Assembly: GCA_022776445.1 (NCBI GenBank)
Contig: JALFHZ010000189.1
Location: 1-45,958 of the forward strand
Direction: 5' to 3'
From: Lachnospiraceae bacterium
GTDB lineage: Bacteria; Bacillota; Clostridia; Lachnospirales; Lachnospiraceae
DNA: 45,958 bases
The translations under genes and the position numbers were made by a program. Positions 25,178 through 34,454 of the stretch are shown here, in pieces. The notes below the pieces were generated by a model, which was not told the DNA's origin, did not search any database, and saw only the letters and a program-made list of their open reading frames with translations. Positions within the stretch are counted from its first letter, which is position 1. Each line of letters starts with the position of its first letter.

Positions 25178-25192
25178 ACTATACAAAGCAAA

Positions 25193-25269
25193 CTCTGGAG
25201 AGTCTCATGAAACGAGCGCCGAAGGTGTACGGCATGACCAATGCCAATCTCTCAGGCAAAAGGACAGAG
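25193..25269 (+). ncRNA. Glycine riboswitch, single aptamer
   Basis: The conserved glycine (gcvT) aptamer core is present: CTCTGGAGAG at 25193, the central GCGCCGAAGG near 25217, and CAATCTCTCAGGCAAAAGGA before the closing CAGAG (25265-25269), which pairs with CTCTG (25193-25197) to form P1. Only one aptamer is seen; no second core follows. It precedes a sodium:alanine/glycine symporter, which fits glycine-dependent control of glycine transport. Confidence 0.93.
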
Positions 25270-25330
25270 CAGACAGGTACTTACGGGAGTACCGTCCTTT
25301 CTACACTCTTCTGAGGGAGTTTTTCTTTTG
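25261..25330 (+). terminator. Expression platform of the glycine riboswitch
   Basis: GGTACT (25276-25281) pairs with AGTACC (25288-25293). The flanking AGGAC (25261-25265) can pair with GTCCT (25294-25298), which would compete with aptamer P1. ACTCTT...GGGAGT (25305-25320) then forms a short stem followed by TTTTCTTTT, an intrinsic terminator. The direction of control is not decided by the sequence alone. Confidence 0.6.
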
Positions 25331-25403: not shown

Positions 25404-26804
25404 ATGTTGGAATTGATGAGTGAGTGGCTGAAGGCAGTGGATGATTTGGTCTGGGGAGTTCCCTTGATCGTCCTGATTCTGGTGACAGGAATAATTCTGA
25501 CTGCACGGCTGAGAGGACTACAGTTTCGGAAATTGAGGACTGCATTTTGGTACATGTTTAAGAACGAAGAAGAGGGGCATGGAGAAGTTTCCAGTTTTGC
25601 GGCGTTATGTACAGCACTTTCGGCTACCATCGGAACAGGTAATATTGTTGGTGTGGCTACGGCTATCGTATCCGGCGGAGCAGGAGCTCTTTTCTGGATG
25701 TGGGTGGCTGCACTATTTGGAATGGCAACCAAGTACGCAGAAGGCGTGCTTGCGATCAAGTATCGCGTCATTGGTCCGCAAGGGCATGTATTGGGCGGAC
25801 CATTTTACTATATTGAAAACGGGATGGGAAAGAATTTTCGATGGATGGGAAAGGTTTTTGCTTTTTTTGGCGCAGGTGTAGGTTTGCTTGGTATCGGAAC
25901 TTTTACACAGGTCAATGGTATTACATCCGCGGCAGGAGATTTTTTTGACAGGAACAAAGAACATGTGATTAAGCTGTTTGGTCATGATTACCGTGTGGCG
26001 GTGATGATTACCGGTGCGATACTGACCGTATGTGTGGCACTGGTAGTGCTGGGCGGTATCCGGAGAATTGCTCGTGTTTCCGAAATTATCGTGCCGTTCA
26101 TGGCAATATTTTATGTGCTGGCCTGTGTCGTGATTCTGATGCTGCATGCAGCTCAGATTCCGGCAGCATTTGCAGAGATTCTTTCCAGTGCATTTGGCCT
26201 GCGTGCAGCAGCGGGCGGTGCTCTGGGCTCTGTGCTTATGGCAATGCAGAAGGGAATTGCCCGCGGTATCTTTTCCAATGAGGCAGGACTGGGAAGCGCA
26301 CCGATTGCGGCAGCGGCGGCGCGGACAAAGGAGCCGGCACGGCAGGGACTGGTTTCTATGACCGGTACGTTTATTGATACGATTATTGTCTGCACCATGA
26401 CCGGACTCTGCATCGTACTGACCGGATCTCATGAAGCGGGACTGGAGGGTGTGGCAGTGACAACACGGGCATTTCAGATGGGGCTTCCACTACCGGAGAT
26501 GGTGAGTTCCTTCCTGCTGATGACCTGTCTGATTTTCTTTGCGTTTACAACGATCATAGGGTGGAATTATTACGGGGAGCGCTGCCTGGAATACCTGTCC
26601 GGCGGAAACCATGGCGCTGTAATGACGTATCGGATCCTCTATATTCTGGCAATTTTCATCGGACCGTTTATGACGGTGGAGGCAGTCTGGACGATTGCAG
26701 ATATCTTTAATGCGCTGATGGCGCTTCCAAACCTGATTGCATTGTTGGTATTGAGTGGTGTGGTTGTTAGGGAAACAAAGGATTACTGGGCAGGACAGTC
26801 ATAA
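25404..26804 (+). CDS. AGCS-family sodium:alanine/glycine symporter
   Basis: A 466-residue Na+-coupled symporter of the AGCS family with about eleven membrane spans. Signatures include ALSATIGTGNIVGVATAIVSGG near residue 70, GPFYYIENGM near 133 and GIARGIFSNEAGLGSAPIAAA around 285. Family members carry alanine and/or glycine; the riboswitch in the leader favours glycine here. GAGGAG precedes ATG 25404. No obvious strong terminator follows before the next gene. Confidence 0.95.
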   Translation: MLELMSEWLKAVDDLVWGVPLIVLILVTGIILTARLRGLQFRKLRTAFWYMFKNEEEGHGEVSSFAALCTALSATIGTGNIVGVATAIVSGGAGALFWMWVAALFGMATKYAEGVLAIKYRVIGPQGHVLGGPFYYIENGMGKNFRWMGKVFAFFGAGVGLLGIGTFTQVNGITSAAGDFFDRNKEHVIKLFGHDYRVAVMITGAILTVCVALVVLGGIRRIARVSEIIVPFMAIFYVLACVVILMLHAAQIPAAFAEILSSAFGLRAAAGGALGSVLMAMQKGIARGIFSNEAGLGSAPIAAAAARTKEPARQGLVSMTGTFIDTIIVCTMTGLCIVLTGSHEAGLEGVAVTTRAFQMGLPLPEMVSSFLLMTCLIFFAFTTIIGWNYYGERCLEYLSGGNHGAVMTYRILYILAIFIGPFMTVEAVWTIADIFNALMALPNLIALLVLSGVVVRETKDYWAGQS

Positions 26805-26903: not shown

Positions 26904-28616
26904 TTGAGAATTGGATTGGATGTAGGCTCCACCACGATCAAGAGCGTTGTTCTCGATCAGGCTGGAGCCATTGTTTATTCTGCATATGAGCGTCATTTCT
27001 CCCAGATTACCGCGAAGACGGTAGAGGCTTTGAAGAAGATACGGGATTATTTTCCGTTGGGAACGGAGTTTGGACTGGTTATTTCCGGATCTGCAGGAAT
27101 GGGTATGGCAGAGAACTGCTCCCTTGATTTTGTTCAGGAAGTGTATGCAACCAAGGTTTCTGCGTCGAAGCAGGCACCGGACACGGATGTAATCATTGAA
27201 CTGGGCGGAGAAGATGCGAAGATTATTTATCTGCAGGGGGCGATGGAGGCGCGCATGAACGGTTCCTGTGCAGGCGGAACCGGCGCGTTTATCGATCAGA
27301 TGGCGACACTGCTGAACATTACTCCAGATGAGATGAATGCATATGCGCAGAACAGTTCGAAGCTGTATACGATCGCGTCGCGCTGCGGTGTATTCGCCAA
27401 GAGCGATATTCAGCCCCTGATCAATCAGGGAGCGGATAAGCGGGATATTTCCGCCAGCATTTTTCGGGCAGTGGTCAATCAGACCATCGGCGGACTGGCA
27501 CAGGGGAGAGCGATCCGCGGCAATGTGCTGTATCTGGGGGGACCGCTGACCTTCATGTCTGAGCTGCGGAAGAGCTTTGATCAGGCACTGGGGGTGAAGG
27601 GGTTCTGCCCCGAGCATTCTCTGTATTTTGTGGCACTGGGAGCGGCTCTGTGTGTGAAGCATCCGTCAGATCTGGACCAGGTGATTGAGCAGCTGTCCCG
27701 GTATGAGTCGGCACATGAGTTTGATACGCTTCCTCCTCTTTTTGAGAGTGAAGATGCCTATGAGCAGTTTCGCAGGCGGCATGCACAGGCAGATGTACGC
27801 CGTGGGAAACTGGAAGGCTATACGGGCAGGACATATCTTGGAATCGATGCCGGCTCCACAACGGTTAAAGCAGTGATTATCGGTGAAGAGCAGGAGATTC
27901 TGGACAGTATGTATCAGTCCAATAGCGGCAATCCGGTTCCGATTGTGCGGGAGTATCTGCGTCAGGTCTATGAACGGTATCCGGAGATTCGGATTGCCGG
28001 TTCCTGTGTGACCGGTTACGGAGAAGATATCATCCGGAATGCATTTTCTCTGGACTTCGGTCTGGTGGAAACGATGGCGCACATGAAAGCGGCACAGGCA
28101 TTTATGCCGGATGTGGAATTTATCATCGATATCGGCGGACAGGATATGAAGTGCTTCCGGATCCGCAATTCCGCAATCGACAATATTTATCTGAATGAGG
28201 CTTGCTCGTCCGGATGCGGTTCGTTTCTGCAGACCTTTGCCGGTGCGCTGCATTACACGGCTGAGGAATTTTCCAGACTGGGATTGTTTGCCCGCAATGC
28301 GGTGGATCTGGGATCCCGCTGCACCGTGTTTATGAACTCGTCAGTAAAACAGGCGCAGAAGGATGGGGTCAGCACGGAAGATATCTCCGCCGGGCTGTCG
28401 ATCAGCGTGGTGAAGAATGCGATTTATAAAGTAATTCGGCCGTCCAGCGTGGAAGAACTGGGAAAACGGATTGTGGTGCAGGGCGGCACCTTCCTGAATG
28501 ACGCGGTGCTGCGTGCATTTGAGCAGGAGCTGGGACTGGAAGTGGTTCGCCCGGTGATTGCCGGCCTGATGGGGGCTTACGGATGTGCGCTGGAGGCCAT
28601 GGAAGGGGCACTGTAG
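26904..28616 (+). CDS. CoA-substrate dehydratase/reductase activase, short two-domain form
   Basis: A BadF/BadG/BcrA/BcrD-type ATPase with two ASKHA domains in tandem. These proteins hydrolyse ATP to fire an electron into 2-hydroxyacyl-CoA dehydratases or benzoyl-CoA reductases. Domain 1: [37 protein letters not shown] and [10 protein letters not shown]. Domain 2 (from about 310): [35 protein letters not shown] and [11 protein letters not shown]. The cysteines in each would hold the shared 4Fe-4S cluster. It is 570 residues, whereas the common two-domain form is about 1,400 with a C-terminal DUF2229 part that is absent here. Start is TTG 26904 after AGGAG. No dehydratase subunits lie nearby. 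Confidence 0.88.
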
Positions 28617-28663: not shown

Positions 28664-29236
28664 ATGTATCGAGTTGTGATTGTTGATGATGAAGTGTTGA
28701 TACGTATGTATATACGAGAAATTCTTGAGAATAATGGTTTTGAAGTGGTAGGAGAGGCGGAGGATGGCCTCGAGGCAATCACAACATGCAGAGAGCAGAA
28801 GCCTGATTTTGTAATCATGGATATTAATATGCCGATCATGACGGGGTTGGAGGCAGCCAGGGTAATCAATGAAGAAAAACTGACGGGATTTATTATTGTT
28901 CTGACCGCGTATCGCGACAAAGAGATTGCTGAACAGGCAGTAAATATTGATGTTATGGGATATATAGTCAAGCCTGTGGATGAAGACGCCCTGATTCCTG
29001 CTATTCAGATCGCGCTGAATCAGTATAAACAGATCGAGCAGATGAAGAAGGAATATCATAAAACGAAAGAAGCACTGGATGACAGAAAATATCTTGATCG
29101 GGCCAAGGGCATGATCATGAAGCGAAAAAAGATGACGGAAGAGGAAGCCTACTCTTACATACGGAAGATGGCTATGGACAAGGGAAGTTCAATGACAGAA
29201 ATATCAAAAATACTTTTAAAGGCATATAAAATGTGA
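28664..29236 (+). CDS. ANTAR-domain response regulator (EutV-like)
   Basis: A 190-residue two-component response regulator that binds RNA rather than DNA. The receiver domain (1-120) has the acidic pair Asp8/Asp9, phospho-acceptor Asp53 in VIMDINMP, Thr81 and Lys103 in IVKP. A coiled linker (118-140) leads to the ANTAR domain (about 135-190) with RAKGMIMKRKKMTEEEAYSYI and the second helix up to EISKILLKA. Family members, once phosphorylated, dimerise and stabilise paired hexaloop hairpins in leader RNAs, preventing termination. ATG 28664 follows GGGGGG. The kinase gene starts 28 bases downstream, and a matching RNA target lies after it at 30768-30848. Confidence 0.95.
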   Translation: MYRVVIVDDEVLIRMYIREILENNGFEVVGEAEDGLEAITTCREQKPDFVIMDINMPIMTGLEAARVINEEKLTGFIIVLTAYRDKEIAEQAVNIDVMGYIVKPVDEDALIPAIQIALNQYKQIEQMKKEYHKTKEALDDRKYLDRAKGMIMKRKKMTEEEAYSYIRKMAMDKGSSMTEISKILLKAYKM

Positions 29237-29264
29237 GTGGTTGTGAAAATACGGAGGAAGAGCT

Positions 29265-30695
29265 ATGCAGCAGGAGCTGATGATGGAAGAGAAGGACAGC
29301 AGACTGGTTCAATTGGTTCGTTCTTATACGGATTTGGAGGATGATGACATCCGCATTCTTCTTGAAGTATCACACTCGCTGCCGTTTATTGGAAACCTGG
29401 AAAATGGAGATACCTATATTAATGTTCTGACTTTGAAGGGAGAATCCATGGTTGTCGCACAGTACAGACATCCAAACTGTGACCTCTACAAACGGGATAT
29501 TATTGGCGAAGTGGAAAAGCATACAGATGAACCGGCGGTGTATCGTGCTTTGGAGCAAGGGATATCCAGTCGGGGGTTCATTGGCATTATTGATGAAGGA
29601 CGTCTCATCGTTCGTCATACCGTCAGTCCCATTTTTAATAAACAGCAGAAGGTGATCGGGTCTTTGACCTATGAATATCTGAATACCAGTTCTGATACGG
29701 AACCGATACGCATTAAGGGAAAAGAGGGAGATTACAGAGACGGACAGATCAACCAGTTTATCAGCCATCTGCAGGATGGTTTTCTGGTATATAACGAAGA
29801 GGGAATCTGTATTTCTGCCAATCCAAAGGCAGAGGAACTGTATCAGAAAATCGGCTATGGAAAAGGTGTGGTTGGCAGAAAATATAATGAATTGCAGCTG
29901 ACCGGTCATATGCAGTCTGATATCGTTGCGGAACACGGTACAATCAGGGACGAAGTTCGGATTCGAGACTGCATTCTTGAGGAAAATATCAGTGTAGTCT
30001 GGGAAAACAATGTCTGTCAGGGAATTGCGGTTATTCTGCGAGACAAGACCAGAATGCGGCAGATGGAAGATGAGATTGCTTATCGCGTCGCTTTGCTTCA
30101 TGAGGTGCGTCATCGGGTGAAAAATAATCTTCAGACAATTATAAGCCTTGTGGGTCTGGAAGCTGCACGTACAAGAAATGACGCAGTAAAAGCATATGCC
30201 AGAACTATTACCGGTTATATTCGCAGCATGAGTGTGACTTATGATATGCTTGCCCATACGGAACGGGAGAGCGTGGAACTGAAAACAATGCTGAATCGTA
30301 TGGCAGATGTCCTTATGGAAAACGGAAATGCCTGTGAATATCATGTCCATGTGGATATTGACGGGGACGATATAGAACTTCCGGCCAGTATCGCCTCTAC
30401 AGTTGCACTGATTGTCAATGAGCTGATTCAAAACAGTATTAAATACGCATTTCATGGTCGTAAAGAGGGAAAACTGTGGATGAAGATTGAAAAAGGAGAA
30501 GAGTATTCCTGGATCACTGTAGGGGACGATGGCTGCGGTTTTGATAAAGAAAGCAAAATGAATTCGGGCTGCGGTCTGGGATTGAGACTGATTGAGGGTC
30601 TTGTGAAATCCAGTCTGAAAGGAAATCTGGAGATTGAGAGCAGTGGTCATGGAACGATTACGCGATTCTCTTTTCATAATTTAAAATTCCATTGA
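29265..30695 (+). CDS. Cytosolic HisKA_2 sensor histidine kinase (EutW-like)
   Basis: A 476-residue sensor kinase without membrane spans, partner of the ANTAR regulator. Residues 1-145 resemble the N-terminal sensor domain of EutW-type kinases, 160-265 form a PAS-like domain (SHLQDGFLVYNEEG), and the HisKA_2 box reads LLHEVRHRVKNNLQT with His283 as phosphate acceptor. The ATPase domain has N-box NELIQNSIKYAF (385-396), G1 DDGCGF (421-426) and G2 GCGLGL. In EutW the N-terminus senses ethanolamine; the ligand here is unknown and presumably soluble and cytosolic. CGGAGG precedes ATG 29265. Its stop codon overlaps the -35 of the next promoter. Confidence 0.93.
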   Translation: MQQELMMEEKDSRLVQLVRSYTDLEDDDIRILLEVSHSLPFIGNLENGDTYINVLTLKGESMVVAQYRHPNCDLYKRDIIGEVEKHTDEPAVYRALEQGISSRGFIGIIDEGRLIVRHTVSPIFNKQQKVIGSLTYEYLNTSSDTEPIRIKGKEGDYRDGQINQFISHLQDGFLVYNEEGICISANPKAEELYQKIGYGKGVVGRKYNELQLTGHMQSDIVAEHGTIRDEVRIRDCILEENISVVWENNVCQGIAVILRDKTRMRQMEDEIAYRVALLHEVRHRVKNNLQTIISLVGLEAARTRNDAVKAYARTITGYIRSMSVTYDMLAHTERESVELKTMLNRMADVLMENGNACEYHVHVDIDGDDIELPASIASTVALIVNELIQNSIKYAFHGRKEGKLWMKIEKGEEYSWITVGDDGCGFDKESKMNSGCGLGLRLIEGLVKSSLKGNLEIESSGHGTITRFSFHNLKFH

Positions 30696-30720
30696 CAAAT
30701 TCAGATCAATATGTTATAAT
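30692..30720 (+). promoter_or_regulatory. Consensus promoter of the permease-ucpA unit (TTGACA-17-TATAAT)
   Basis: -35 TTGACA at 30692-30697 and -10 TATAAT at 30715-30720 match the sigma-A consensus in full with a 17-base spacer. Such a strong constitutive promoter fits control downstream, by termination. Confidence 0.85.
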
Positions 30721-30728
30721 TTTGACAA

Positions 30729-30748
30729 TTAAAGCGATATCTCTTTAA
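30729..30748 (+). other. 5'-most leader hairpin
   Basis: TTAAAG (30729-30734) pairs with CTTTAA (30743-30748) around an eight-base loop at the very 5' end of the transcript. The loop is not the ANTAR hexaloop type. It may protect the 5' end. Confidence 0.4.
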
Positions 30749-30767
30749 CTAGGAAAATTCAATAAAA

Positions 30768-30815
30768 CTGATATGCAACGGCGTATATCAGGGTTATGTG
30801 TGGCATCGAAGTCCA
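30768..30815 (+). promoter_or_regulatory. ANTAR dual-hairpin RNA target
   Basis: Hairpin P1 (30768-30791) has a 9-bp stem, CTGATATGC against GTATATCAG with one G-U pair, and the hexaloop AACGGC. Hairpin P2 (30801-30815) has the hexaloop ATCGAA on a short stem, TGGC against GTCCA with one bulged T. Both loops have A at position 1 and G at position 4, the signature of RNA sites bound by ANTAR regulators. The 3' strand of P2 is the first part of the terminator stem, so P2 and terminator exclude each other. P1 is clear; P2's stem is weak. Confidence 0.75.
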
Positions 30816-30848
30816 AAAACTTTTCAAAGGGGTTTTTGGGCTTTTTTA
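30811..30848 (+). terminator. Leader terminator controlled by the ANTAR site
   Basis: GTCCAAAAAC (30811-30820) pairs with GTTTTTGGGC (30832-30841) over 10 bp (one T-G pair), followed by TTTTTT at 30842-30847. It lies between the strong promoter and the permease gene, so without antitermination the gene would be off. Confidence 0.9.
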
Positions 30849-30906
30849 TTTACCGTTTTCCACACAGCTGAGTTTTCAAAAATAAATGAAAAGGAGTTTC
30901 TTCGGA

Positions 30907-32304
30907 ATGGAAAATAAGAGTGGTGGTTTAAACAAAAGTCTGAAACTGATTTTTGTTTATACGGTTGCAACAGGGTCTATTTTTACATTCGTAAACTATT
31001 GGGATTCTGTATTTTATGGTTACTGTGGCAGTGGGACGTTTCTGGCTTTTGCTTTGATGACGGTTGCGATTCTGCCGATTGCGTTGGTGTACAGTGAGCT
31101 TGCGTCTTTGTTTCATACTTCAGGCGGTGAGTTGATCTATAATACCGTAGGCATCAGCAAGCATGTGGGTTTTCTGGCATCCTGGCTGATCATGGCGGCA
31201 TGGATATCTGTTCCGCCTGCTGTAGTAATGGCAATTATGACTTGGGTGAATAAGACACTGAATCTGGATCTTGGTACTTGGCCGATGGTCGGCTGTGCGG
31301 CAATCCTGCTGGTATTATATTTCCTGATGAGTATTCAGAATGTTCAGTTCCTGGTAAAAGCTCAGGCAGGAATGCTGTTCTGTAATATTGCGGTTACCAT
31401 ACTGACCGGATTCATTCTGCTGTTCTCCGGACATTGGCATATTTCGAACTTTGACAATAGTTTCACTTCGACATTGGAATCCGTATACGGCATTCCGGGA
31501 TGGGTCATCGGAATGGCGCTGCTTATTACTCCGTATTTTGGATTTGAAACAGTACCTCAGATGGTAGAAGAAGGAGATTTCCCTATTAAGAACTCCAAGA
31601 AAGCTATCTGCGGATCAATTCTAACCTGCGGCTGCATTTATGTGTTCTATTATTTCTGTGTCGCAGGATTAGATGGTTTGAAAGATGTATATGCAAATTT
31701 TGCACAGGATGGTTTCCTGACAATTGCTACGATGCAGAATGTACTGGGATGGACGATCTGGCCGATTATTGTTGGTCTGCTTTCCTGTCTGCTTGGTATG
31801 GGAGCTTCCCTTTTAGGATTCTGGATGTCAACAGTCCGTATGCTGTATTCCATGGCTAATAAGAATTTTCTGCCAAAAGTTTTTGCGAAAGTTAATAAAA
31901 ATCAGCAGCCACTGTTGCCGAACATTTTCCTGCTGGTTTTATCTCTGATTTTTATTGTTTTGCAGAATTCTTCTGATTTTATGAGTGCGTTCTTTAATCT
32001 GATGAGCTTTGGATGTGCCTGTGCATATGCTCTGACGATGATATCCGCTGTTTGTATTCATCACAAGCATCCGGAATGGAAGAGTGCAAATACCGTGAAA
32101 GGCGGAGATGCATTTCGTATTCTGGCTATGTTGATCGCAGTTACAATTGCATTTTTCTGTACACTGGGACAGGGCAGGGATTCTTGGATTTGCTTCTTTG
32201 TATATCTGGGTATCGGTGTTGTAATCTGGCTGTGGATGCTTCTGGTCAACTGGAAAAAGCATCCTGTAGAGATTGAAACTCCGGATGGTATTCAGAAATT
32301 CTAA
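30907..32304 (+). CDS. APC-superfamily amino acid/amine permease
   Basis: A 465-residue permease of the amino acid-polyamine-organocation superfamily with about twelve membrane spans. TM1 has the unwound-helix stretch FVYTVATGSIFTFVNYWDS, and TM6 the motif GMALLITPYFGFETVPQMVEEG. GISKHVGFLASWL belongs to the third span region. ATG 30907 is chosen because AAGGAG precedes it by ten bases; an ATG at 30886 would lie before that site. Expression should depend on the ANTAR antiterminator in its leader. The substrate is unknown: an amino acid or an amine is likely, and ethanolamine-like compounds are possible given the EutVW-like control. Confidence 0.88.
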   Translation: MENKSGGLNKSLKLIFVYTVATGSIFTFVNYWDSVFYGYCGSGTFLAFALMTVAILPIALVYSELASLFHTSGGELIYNTVGISKHVGFLASWLIMAAWISVPPAVVMAIMTWVNKTLNLDLGTWPMVGCAAILLVLYFLMSIQNVQFLVKAQAGMLFCNIAVTILTGFILLFSGHWHISNFDNSFTSTLESVYGIPGWVIGMALLITPYFGFETVPQMVEEGDFPIKNSKKAICGSILTCGCIYVFYYFCVAGLDGLKDVYANFAQDGFLTIATMQNVLGWTIWPIIVGLLSCLLGMGASLLGFWMSTVRMLYSMANKNFLPKVFAKVNKNQQPLLPNIFLLVLSLIFIVLQNSSDFMSAFFNLMSFGCACAYALTMISAVCIHHKHPEWKSANTVKGGDAFRILAMLIAVTIAFFCTLGQGRDSWICFFVYLGIGVVIWLWMLLVNWKKHPVEIETPDGIQKF

Positions 32305-32309
32305 GGTAA

Positions 32310-32486
32310 ATGATGGAGTATATGAAAGGAGGCAATGTGACCCGGGTAACGGCACTGGTAATTGCCATTGTGATTGCATTCTTTTGTACATTGGAGCAGA
32401 GTGGGGGCGTTAACATAAAATCCTTGCGGGAGACCGCTTGGTATAGATTTAGGCATATTCTTATTCGTGAGAATGATCTGAGGTGA
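32310..32486 (+). pseudogene. 58-codon ORF echoing the end of the upstream permease
   Basis: An ATG at 32310 opens 58 codons to TGA 32484. A GTG at 32337 lies four bases after a strong AAAGGAGG. Residues 11-29 (TRVTALVIAIVIAFFCTLEQ) closely resemble the penultimate span region of the permease just upstream (RILAMLIAVTIAFFCTLGQ). The continuation, SLRETAWYRFRHILIREN, is unrelated. It is probably a remnant of a second, deleted permease copy. A short expressed membrane peptide is the alternative. It lies between permease and ucpA. Confidence 0.4.
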
Positions 32487-32528
32487 GAGTATGCCGCATA
32501 AAATTATAAAGTAAAGGAGTAATTTAAA

Positions 32529-33326
32529 ATGGCTAAATTGGATGGAAAAGTTGCATTAATTACTGGAGCAGCAGCAGGATTGGGAGAGGGGATTTCCACA
32601 GTTTATGCAAAATACGGTGCGAAACTGGTAATGGTAGATCTGTCTCCGGAGGTTGAAAAAACAGCTGAGAAGCTGCGTAAGGAGTACAATGCAGAGATTA
32701 TCACTGTTGTGGCAAATGTAGCTGACCGTGCACAGATGGATGCAGCAGCTGCAAAAGGTGCAGAGGCTTTTGGAGAGATCAATGTTGCTTGCTGTAACGC
32801 CGGTGTTTGCCGTCTGGCTCCGTTTGAAGAAATGGATGATAAGACCCGTGATTTCCACATTGATGTCAATATCAAGGGTGTATGGAATACCTGTAAGGCT
32901 GTTATTCCGTATATGTTGAAGCAGGGCGGCGGCAACATTGTAATTGCTTCTTCCGTAACCGGTGATATTGTTGCTGATGCAGGAGAAGCTGCTTATGCAA
33001 TGACAAAGGCAGCTCTGGTTGGTCTGACTAAATGCCTCGCTGTTGAGTATGCAAATCGCAACATCCGCGTAAACTGTTCACAGCTGGGCTATGCGCGTAC
33101 ACCAATGGTTGAAAAAATGGCTTTGGAATCCAATCCGGAGAATCCGGAGGCAGCTATTGCCGATATCGCTGTAGGTGTTCCGATGAAACGCCTTGCAAAG
33201 CCAACCGAGGTCGGCGAGTTATTTGCATTTTTAGGAAGTGATGAGTCCAGCTATCTGACTGGATCTCAGATCGTGATTGATGGCGGAAGCACTTTACCGG
33301 AGACCATGTCTATTGGTACCAACTAA
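32529..33326 (+). CDS. ucpA: SDR-family oxidoreductase, UcpA-like
   Basis: A 265-residue classical short-chain dehydrogenase closest in recalled sequence to UcpA. The cofactor site TGAAAGLGEG is at 12-21, Asp37 (VMVDLS) suggests NAD(H), CNAG is at 89-92 and Asn114 in DVNIKG. The active site is Ser141/142, Tyr156 and Lys160 (YAMTK). The C-terminus SYLTGSQIVIDGGSTLPETMS is typical of UcpA. Oddities are CNAG for NNAG and QLGYARTP where relatives have a Pro before the Gly. Strong AAAGGAG before ATG 32529. It follows the ANTAR-controlled permease and is probably co-expressed, but its own promoter in the 220-base gap cannot be excluded. Substrate unknown. Confidence 0.88.
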   Translation: MAKLDGKVALITGAAAGLGEGISTVYAKYGAKLVMVDLSPEVEKTAEKLRKEYNAEIITVVANVADRAQMDAAAAKGAEAFGEINVACCNAGVCRLAPFEEMDDKTRDFHIDVNIKGVWNTCKAVIPYMLKQGGGNIVIASSVTGDIVADAGEAAYAMTKAALVGLTKCLAVEYANRNIRVNCSQLGYARTPMVEKMALESNPENPEAAIADIAVGVPMKRLAKPTEVGELFAFLGSDESSYLTGSQIVIDGGSTLPETMSIGTN

Positions 33327-33450: not shown

Positions 33451-33563
33451 AACTTAAGGTAATGTCAAGTAATCTATTTAGTAAGCAACCCACAGGGCAA
33501 GGTCATAGTTGGCACCGTCGATGTTGTCAAATCCATTTGTTTTCCGGTAGGAAGCTTTGTAGT

Positions 33564-33587
33564 CCATTATTTATCCCATTATTTATC
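33564..33587 (+). repeat. 12-bp tandem duplication
   Basis: CCATTATTTATC is present twice in a row (33564-33575, 33576-33587). It duplicates the codons for PLFI in the sulfatase remnant exactly at its truncation point. Confidence 0.8.
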
Positions 33588-34190
33588 TGGGATCCCAGAA
33601 GCGGCAGAAAGGGGGAACGGACGAATCAGCTGGTACAGACAGTGGATTTGCCGGCTACACTGCTCGAATATTTTGGGCAACCGTTGCCGGTGGACATGGA
33701 AGGGCGTTCACTGCGTCCTGTAATAGAGGGGGATCAAGCCATTCGTGAAGGAGCTTTGTTTGGAATTTTTGGTGGCCAGATCTGCTGTACAGACGGAAAG
33801 TGGGTTTATATGAGAAGCCCTGTTCTAAGTAACCAGCCGCGCTATGAATATACTTTGATGCCCACACGCCATGGTGGAAGGAGAGCATTTATCAACCATG
33901 AAATTTTACGTTCCATGAAACTTCATCAGTCGTTTCCTTTTACAAAAGGAATTCCAGTATTGAAACTGGAAAGCACAAATTATATTTCACAGGCAGATTA
34001 TCCGACTTTGATGTTTTGTATACAAAAGGATCCGGAGGAGCAATATCCGGTGAAAGATACAGAGCAGGAAAAGAGAATGCTGGAATTGATGAAAAAAATG
34101 ATGTTGGAAAATGCCTGCCCGGAGGAGCAGTTTATCAGGATGGGAATAGATAATAACAGCAGGGACGAATATGCCGGGACGGATCTTTGA
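33564..34190 (+). pseudogene. 5'-truncated sulfatase
   Basis: From about 33564 the frame reads as the C-terminal part of a type I sulfatase/phosphatase: IPLFIWDPRSG, TNQLVQTVDLPATLLEYFG and DMEGRSLRPVIEG, followed by a C-terminal subdomain to residue DEYAGTDL. The N-terminal half, with the formylglycine Cys/Ser-x-Pro-x-Arg and the metal-binding Asp residues, is missing, so no activity is expected. The frame remains open for about 200 codons and extends upstream to ATG 33462 through unrelated sequence. A 12-bp tandem duplication lies at the junction. The loss therefore looks recent. Confidence 0.75.
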
Positions 34191-34278
34191 TCCGGCAACT
34201 GGTCTGATATTGAATTTTTGTCGGAAGCGCAGTGTATCCAATACGGGCATCTGCCTTCCTTTTTTCGCAACAAAAAAA

Positions 34279-34350
34279 TGCGTCTGATAGGAATCGAACC
34301 TACGCACGCGGCTCCGGAGGCCACTGCTCTATCCACTGAGCTACAGACGC
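34279..34350 (-). tRNA. tRNA-Arg (anticodon CCG)
   Basis: The minus strand folds into a 72-nt cloverleaf: acceptor GCGTCTG/CAGACGC, D-arm GCTC/GAGC, anticodon stem GTGGC/GCCGC with loop CTCCGGA (anticodon CCG, reading CGG), T-loop TTCGATT and discriminator A. CCA is not encoded; a run of T follows directly and would end transcription. Confidence 0.96.
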
Positions 34351-34454
34351 ATCTCCATTATATTACTATACTTTTTTAGAATTTGCAAGAGGGATTTCTT
34401 GATTTTTTATGGTTATTTTGCTATGATAGGACATAAACAGCAGAGGAGGACCTG

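Follow-up and report, generated by a model that had tools for sequence, protein, structure and literature searches.

How is a small operon for a transporter and a dehydrogenase controlled in a Lachnospiraceae bacterium, and to what does it respond? The question is raised by positions 28,664 to 33,326 of contig JALFHZ010000189.1 (GenBank assembly GCA_022776445.1), analyzed here within a stretch of 45,958 nucleotides (nt), hereafter the window. An ANTAR response regulator and a soluble sensor histidine kinase precede a promoter, a leader with two hairpins (P1 and P2) and an intrinsic terminator, and genes for an APC-family permease and a UcpA-type short-chain dehydrogenase (SDR) (Table 1). These parts stand in the same order in a second genus, and the regulator keeps RNA-contacting residues of Enterococcus EutV. 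ANTAR antitermination of an import and oxidation operon is very likely; the mechanism is already known, and the cassette is an additional, well-supported example of it.

With high confidence, we propose that the cassette is a two-component antitermination system complete in itself. Its soluble kinase would sense a small cytosolic molecule and phosphorylate D53 of the regulator, which would then dimerize and bind the hexaloops of P1 and subsequently P2 in the nascent leader RNA, recognizing loops of six nucleotides with A at position 1 (A1) and G at position 4 (G4). Bound P2 would sequester the 5' arm of the terminator, allowing polymerase to read into the permease and SDR genes. Without a signal, P1 and the strong terminator would form, and transcription of the operon would end near position 30848. 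RNA binding, phosphorylation dependence, and read-through are predicted here by analogy with Enterococcus EutV.

The regulator matches PF00072 (Response_reg, 1.7e-30) and PF03861 (ANTAR, 9.4e-18), and the kinase matches GAF_PdtaS, HisKA_2, and HATPase_c, all above their cut-offs. Kyte-Doolittle (KD) hydropathy of the kinase reaches at most 1.52 over 19-residue segments and none exceeds 1.6, so by this simple measure the kinase is cytosolic; its H-box, EVRHRVKNNLQ, contains H283. The permease matches AA_permease_2 above cut-off and lies below the curated cut-off in all nine NCBIfam families that it matched; against the ethanolamine permease model TIGR00908 it scores 63.1 bits, short of the cut-off of 381.75. 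Its start is most likely at 30907 and not at the first in-frame ATG (30886), judged by eye, because AAAGGAG lies 10 nt ahead of the later ATG and the ortholog begins there. The SDR exceeds the cut-off of the UcpA equivalog NF006080 (433.8 versus 356 bits).

Table 1. Positions of the cassette features in the window and, in the last row, of leaders in other loci
Feature	Position	Strand	Basis
ANTAR response regulator (EutV-like), 190 aa	28664..29236	+	domain scan; expected phospho-acceptor D53
Soluble sensor histidine kinase, GAF_PdtaS + HisKA_2 + HATPase_c, 476 aa	29265..30695	+	domain scan
Sigma-70-type promoter, TTGACA-17-TATAAT with TG	30692..30720	+	promoter scan
Hairpin P1, 9 bp, hexaloop AACGGC (A1, G4)	30768..30791	+	descriptor, folding, ortholog comparison
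Hairpin P2, 3 bp (GGC/GUC), hexaloop ATCGAA (A1, G4)	30802..30813	+	descriptor, folding, ortholog comparison
Intrinsic terminator; 5' arm contains the end of the P2 loop and the 3' strand of P2; T tail extending to about 30848	30808..30844	+	terminator scan, folding
APC-family permease, 465 aa counted from 30907	30907..32304	+	domain scan; start by eye
58-aa open reading frame, permease-like stretch	32310..32486	+	resemblance by eye
UcpA-type SDR, 265 aa	32529..33326	+	domain scan, NCBIfam
Leaders in loci without the Met plug	L155 6206; L156 5352; L159 13612, 12002, 9019; L174 7920

The leader RNA and its copy in a second genus

Genome G361, which belongs to another genus, carries the same four genes in the same order (locus L087), with amino acid identities to the window of 76% (regulator), 65% (kinase), 92% (permease), and 94% (SDR). 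The fractions of four-fold degenerate sites that are identical are 0.365, 0.440, 0.425, and 0.496, respectively (52 to 193 sites per gene), so that at 37-50% identity silent similarity has been nearly erased by drift. Despite these near-saturated sites, a continuous run of 23 bases in P1 is the same in both leaders (23 of 23). The P2 loop of the ortholog is ATTGTG, with A1, T2, and G4 retained and positions 3, 5, and 6 differing, and the foot of the terminator stays paired with changed bases (AGTCC/GGGCT in the window and GGTCC/GGACC in G361, by eye). The existence of this copy is more certain than its host, since the G361 assembly has an estimated contamination of 11%. At L004 6001-7582, in the bin Candidatus Lachnoclostridium stercoripullorum, a decayed remnant of a third copy retains part of the regulator (67%), fragments of the kinase (58% and 48%), and behind them, judged by eye, just the final codons of the SDR. 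In a contig scan with the regulator, L004 was the one close relative (67%) among the best 80 of 461, the others reaching at most 51% over their best segment.

The promoter matches the consensus at 12 of 12 positions, carries the TG, and begins within the 3' end of the kinase gene. Behind it, the leader shows the features of a dual-hexaloop RNA, defined by Ramesh et al. 2012 (PMC3369931, in the parts used here): two hairpins of at least 3 base pairs (bp), 6-nt loops with A1 and G4, a linker of about 5-12 nt, and a P2 that shares sequence with the 5' arm of an intrinsic terminator. P2 qualifies only barely, since it has 3 bp, one of them G-U. The linker is 10 nt in the window and 7 nt in the ortholog (about 3-4 nt shorter), both within the 5-12 nt given in that paper for the eut (ethanolamine utilization) leaders of E. 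faecalis. Because they overlap, the terminator and P2 are mutually exclusive. In the fold of the complete leader, P1 is followed by a terminator stem of 17 bp (z -5.45, with 0 of 200 shuffles as good; ortholog z -4.46), and since this fold is preferred and P2 is marginal, termination appears to be the default state, with P2 needing help to form.

Chance occurrence was estimated with a strict descriptor, which required a P1 of 5 bp or more, a P2 of 3 bp or more, A1 and G4 in both loops, and a terminator beginning in the 3' strand of P2. It matched once in the window (both strands), versus twice in 40 Markov-1 shuffles (0.05 per window). Over 1.16 Mb of loci, window copies included, it returned the window leader, the ortholog leader, and one stretch within the kinase gene of the ortholog genome, the latter two each matched in overlapping loci of the set. 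A covariance model (R1) was built from the window and ortholog leaders, whose similarity gives it little reach. In the cassette's own genome it scored the window leader at 69.8 bits, with two further matches at 17.7 (the antisense of the leader itself) and 14.3 bits; over six genomes it gave seven matches, namely the two source leaders and five at 13.9-17.7 bits (E 0.59-9.4). A regulon wider than one leader may exist.

The alignment of the regulator with Enterococcus EutV (PDB 6wsh/6ww6; 8.6e-46) contains no gaps. According to the portions of Walshe et al. 2022 (PMC8934654) from which the RNA contacts were taken, the G4-contacting residues R142, K149, E160, and Y164 of EutV, along with the Met plug M172, are all kept, as R141, K148, E159, Y163, and M171. 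The backbone contacts K143 and R168 are kept as K142 and R167, and D54 as D53; a further backbone contact, K147, is replaced by R146. An earlier note, written from the letters of this DNA, had described an ANTAR regulator with a cytosolic HisKA_2 kinase, a full-consensus promoter, hairpins P1 (AACGGC) and P2 (ATCGAA) with a terminator using the P2 3' strand, and an APC permease with a UcpA-like dehydrogenase, and each of these parts is borne out by the scans above, at the positions in Table 1. Its prediction of EutV-like antitermination is supported, at the level of sequence, by the conserved leader, the contact residues, and the recurrence of the regulator pair in a second genus. The A1 and G4 whose loss from homologous leaders would have counted against it are kept in both G361 hexaloops.

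Several observations weigh against this mechanism. P2 is weak: with three pairs, it folds no better than shuffles when the leader ends behind it, and the transcript cut at 30814 gives P1 plus a marginal P2 (z -1.04; ortholog -0.37). Three EutV backbone contacts are altered in the regulator (N173 to D172, R175 to G174, and R177 to S176, relative to the contacts in those portions of PMC8934654). Only two intact homologous leaders were found, too few for covariation, P1 is invariant between them and so uninformative on pairing, and no Rfam family reaches its gathering score in the leader. The weakness of P2 favors incidental hairpins, with the terminator acting as a constitutive leaky attenuator before the permease operon, as do the 0.23 matches per shuffled window obtained with a looser descriptor (30 shuffles). 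However, an attenuator of this kind is very improbable given the identical leader bases amid near-saturated synonymous sites, the A1 and G4 kept in P2, the rarity of strict-descriptor matches in shuffles, and the presence, in both copies, of a gene for an ANTAR regulator immediately upstream. Protein-free control of the terminator by a metabolite riboswitch or a T-box would suit a leader that is short, has folds excluding each other, and precedes a gene of an amino acid permease family, but its probability is close to negligible: in the leader no riboswitch or T-box family reaches its gathering score, a relaxed search (E up to 10) gave only four sub-threshold matches of other families, and the leader core, 47 nt with 11 pairs, is small relative to known aptamers. 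The four matches (e.g., ctRNA_pT181, 18.3 versus 56 bits) are taken as chance.

The second ANTAR protein of the genome also counts against exclusive control by the cassette pair, as it could act on the leader; the operon would then follow general nitrogen status rather than the adjacent kinase. This protein, encoded in L003, has an ANTAR match, no Response_reg match, and a degenerate receiver in which the usual aspartates are absent, and its homologs adjoin glutamine synthetase in G361 and G083. Yet G083, which has a single ANTAR protein, of this second type, contains no match to the leader model, and regulator, kinase, and leader stand together in both intact copies, so we regard control by the second protein as very improbable and the adjacent pair as the likely regulator of the leader.

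ANTAR proteins with degenerate receivers were observed at L003 10468-11034, L139 6835-7389, and L140 6413-6955. The dapF gene adjoins the ANTAR gene in L003 (by model) and L139 (by resemblance), and glutamine synthetase does so in L139 and L140 (by model).

Operon function, rarity, and flanking genes

Related permeases offer a view of what the operon might handle. The surroundings of seven permease loci were examined (L087, L088, and L134-L138; two G812 fragments were left out), and five of them (L087, L088, L135, L136, and L138) encode an SDR 39-94% identical to that of the window. L134 has only a more distant SDR (33%) and L137 none; the two SDRs tested, from L135 and L138, both score above the UcpA cut-off. 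Genes similar to gcvPA/gcvPB occur in L134, L135, L136, and L138 (by NCBIfam for L135 and by resemblance for the others), and the permease locus of G083 contains an APH-type kinase, a P-II protein, and a class III aminotransferase. These neighbors suggest that the operon handles an amino compound that feeds into the metabolism of nitrogen or glycine. Judging solely from the neighbors of related genes, we infer that the inducer is an amino compound imported by the permease and oxidized by the SDR.

The L134, L135, L136, and L138 clusters also hold NAD-kinase-like, MFS, TIGR01440-type, and SDR genes (models were run for L135), and they possibly represent an undescribed amino acid degradation pathway. 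In L134-L136, two more genes, one of them for a receiver protein, are oriented divergently; those of L135 show AraC-like and PocR-like matches below cut-off. Elsewhere in the window, a glycine riboswitch aptamer (25185-25277, 58.6 bits) lies ahead of a sodium:alanine symporter family gene (25404-26804).

The cassette is rare among the sampled genomes. At E <=1e-60, the permease was found in 3 of 397 genomes of the family (its own, G361, and G083), 2 of 392 of the order (its own and G083), and 6 of 398 of the phylum, its own included; these draws partly overlap. Within the genus of G361 it occurs in one of two genomes (G361 only), and a plasmid search with the permease (E 1e-30) returned no match. 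The regulator has no close relative in 23 other genomes of the window's genus (best 81.7 bits, versus 395.5 for itself), a minority of which were also searched with the permease.

The gene directly upstream (26904-28616) encodes an acyl-CoA dehydratase activase that ends at 570 aa just before the cassette. Homologs 78-84% identical occur in 14 other genomes of the genus, where 13 have a frame of 976-1032 aa and G403 has one of 616 aa; in all seven of the 14 loci inspected the frame runs well beyond residue 570, and in the one homolog scanned the extension reaches a DUF2229 domain. Neither the part past residue 570 nor the next gene, where called (5/7), has a match within the window. Downstream, a 242-aa open reading frame (33462-34190) has only a match to SGSH_C (sulfatase), followed by tRNA-Arg (ccg) at 34278-34351. 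The position of the cassette between two truncated-looking genes fits its acquisition with local gene loss; alternatively, the contig may be chimeric. Within the cassette, the 58-aa open reading frame between permease and SDR resembles, by eye, a short part of the permease's own C-terminal region and is probably a remnant, and the short permease-SDR gap of the ortholog leaves no space for it.

Relation to eut systems and other ANTAR regulons

In trees of 18 regulators and 16 kinases, which did not include the E. faecalis sequences, the two cassette pairs form their own clade (support 100/100) on long stems (0.88 changes per column for regulators and 3.43 for kinases), and the 14 eut kinases lie across a 100/100 branch from the cassette kinases; the cassette regulators may branch among the eut regulators. 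Relatives of the kinase at E <=1e-40 occur in 7 of 397 family genomes, namely its own, G361, and five at 28-33% identity that all sit among eut-like genes; these genes were named from the look of their protein starts, and Pfam confirmed EutB only in G271. The statement in the earlier note that no eut genes are present holds for EutB (PF06751), the one eut gene searched genome-wide: none was found in the cassette's own genome (87.6% complete) or G361, while EutB was detected in G271 and, among 14 control genomes, in E. coli.

We also observed that the first loop base of eut leaders goes with the residue at EutV Met172, being mostly A with Met and mostly G without it (K, R, or Q). The strict A1/G4 descriptor, run as a positive control, called no leader in five eut loci nor in their 22 upstream stretches; after these sequences were read, the first loop base was relaxed, with G4 still required and so fixed by design. 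With Met, seven eut-locus leaders (two each in L170, L171, and L175, one in L185) have A at this position of P1 in 7/7 and of P2 in 5/7, with G in 2/7, and the two cassette leaders (window and L087) have A in 4/4 loops. Without Met, six leaders (L155, L156, three in L159, and L174) have G in P1 in 4/6, with one A and one C, and G in P2 in 5/6, the sixth being A as paired by the script, with GTTGAA as an alternative loop. These counts ignore relatedness among loci. For L087, L175, and L185, the Met-plug residue was identified by eye, and the Met leaders L171 8547 and L185 9502 have no linker as paired by the script. Matches left out as chance-like, on context, strand, and downstream gene, were window 15422 and 25282, L155 17075, L157 5450 (which does precede a eutC-like gene), L158 6987, L174 12305, 12524, and 11760, and L181 12723. 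Also left out were L183 10116, with the Met-plug residue of its ANTAR protein unread, and the leaders of L180/L181 that duplicate those of L155/L156. No leader was called in L172, L173, L176, L177, L178, L179, L182, or L184. In the sections of Walshe et al. 2022 (PMC8934654) used here, hexaloop position 1 is conserved even though in the crystal structure the protein does not contact it specifically, and the contrast between Met plug with A1 and K/R/Q with G1 makes the reason testable.

A broader reading, taken jointly, seems to us evenly poised between holding and failing: a transferable sensor-antiterminator-importer-oxidase cassette, with a ligand outside the known inducers of ANTAR two-component systems, would derive from a EutVW-like pair split off from ethanolamine control, and loss of the Met plug would go with a change from A to G at hexaloop position 1. 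Under this reading the ligand could be, for instance, a beta-hydroxy amino acid or an amino alcohol ending as glycine.

Novelty for this type of control, which the earlier note had suggested, was overstated. Ramesh et al. 2012 (PMC3369931, in the parts used here) report the dual hexaloop and many ANTAR leaders that precede nitrogen-metabolism genes, so both the mechanism and its spread beyond eut, including non-ethanolamine targets, are already known. In the literature searched we found no ANTAR-controlled cassette of APC permease and SDR; the supplementary tables fell outside the search and may list a related leader.

The cassette is best compared with the EutW-EutV system of E. faecalis, with which, as far as described in the consulted parts of Ramesh et al. 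2012 and Walshe et al. 2022, it shares a kinase and ANTAR regulator pair, dual hexaloops with A1 and G4, a linker in the same range, a P2 overlapping the terminator, and the base-contacting residues with the Met plug. Unlike that system, the cassette has one leader found rather than four, placed before an APC permease and SDR in a genome with no EutB detected, and its pair forms a clade of its own, with the kinase apart from the compared eut kinases, E. faecalis itself being outside the tree. The EutV/EutW pairs of L155-L159 (same family) and L170-L175 (same class) resemble it in gene pair and leader logic, and the leaders in the eut loci of two genomes of the class (L171 and L175) have the loop AACGGC in common with P1. 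These pairs differ in lying among eut-like genes, and the five loci of the same family have K, R, or Q at the Met-plug position and leaders called mostly with G1. The non-eut ANTAR regulons of Desulfotomaculum and Pelobacter (Ramesh et al. 2012, PMC3369931, in part) are similar in having leaders before nitrogen-metabolism genes but have other targets; the main text of that paper contains no mention of permease, amino acid, or dehydrogenase, a count that covers the main text and not the supplementary tables. The APC permease and UcpA-like SDR clusters of G083, G947, G869, and G920 (L088, L135, L136, and L138) share the operon content, with permeases 42-45% and SDRs 39-54% identical, but no ANTAR gene lies in the stretch, and they contain instead the gcvPA/gcvPB-like, NAD-kinase-like, and MFS genes, or the APH-type kinase, P-II, and class III aminotransferase genes, noted above. 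Set beside these systems, the cassette is compact: an ANTAR two-component pair, a single leader and a single operon, without EutB. This makes it suited to finding a new ligand of a GAF_PdtaS/HisKA_2 kinase.

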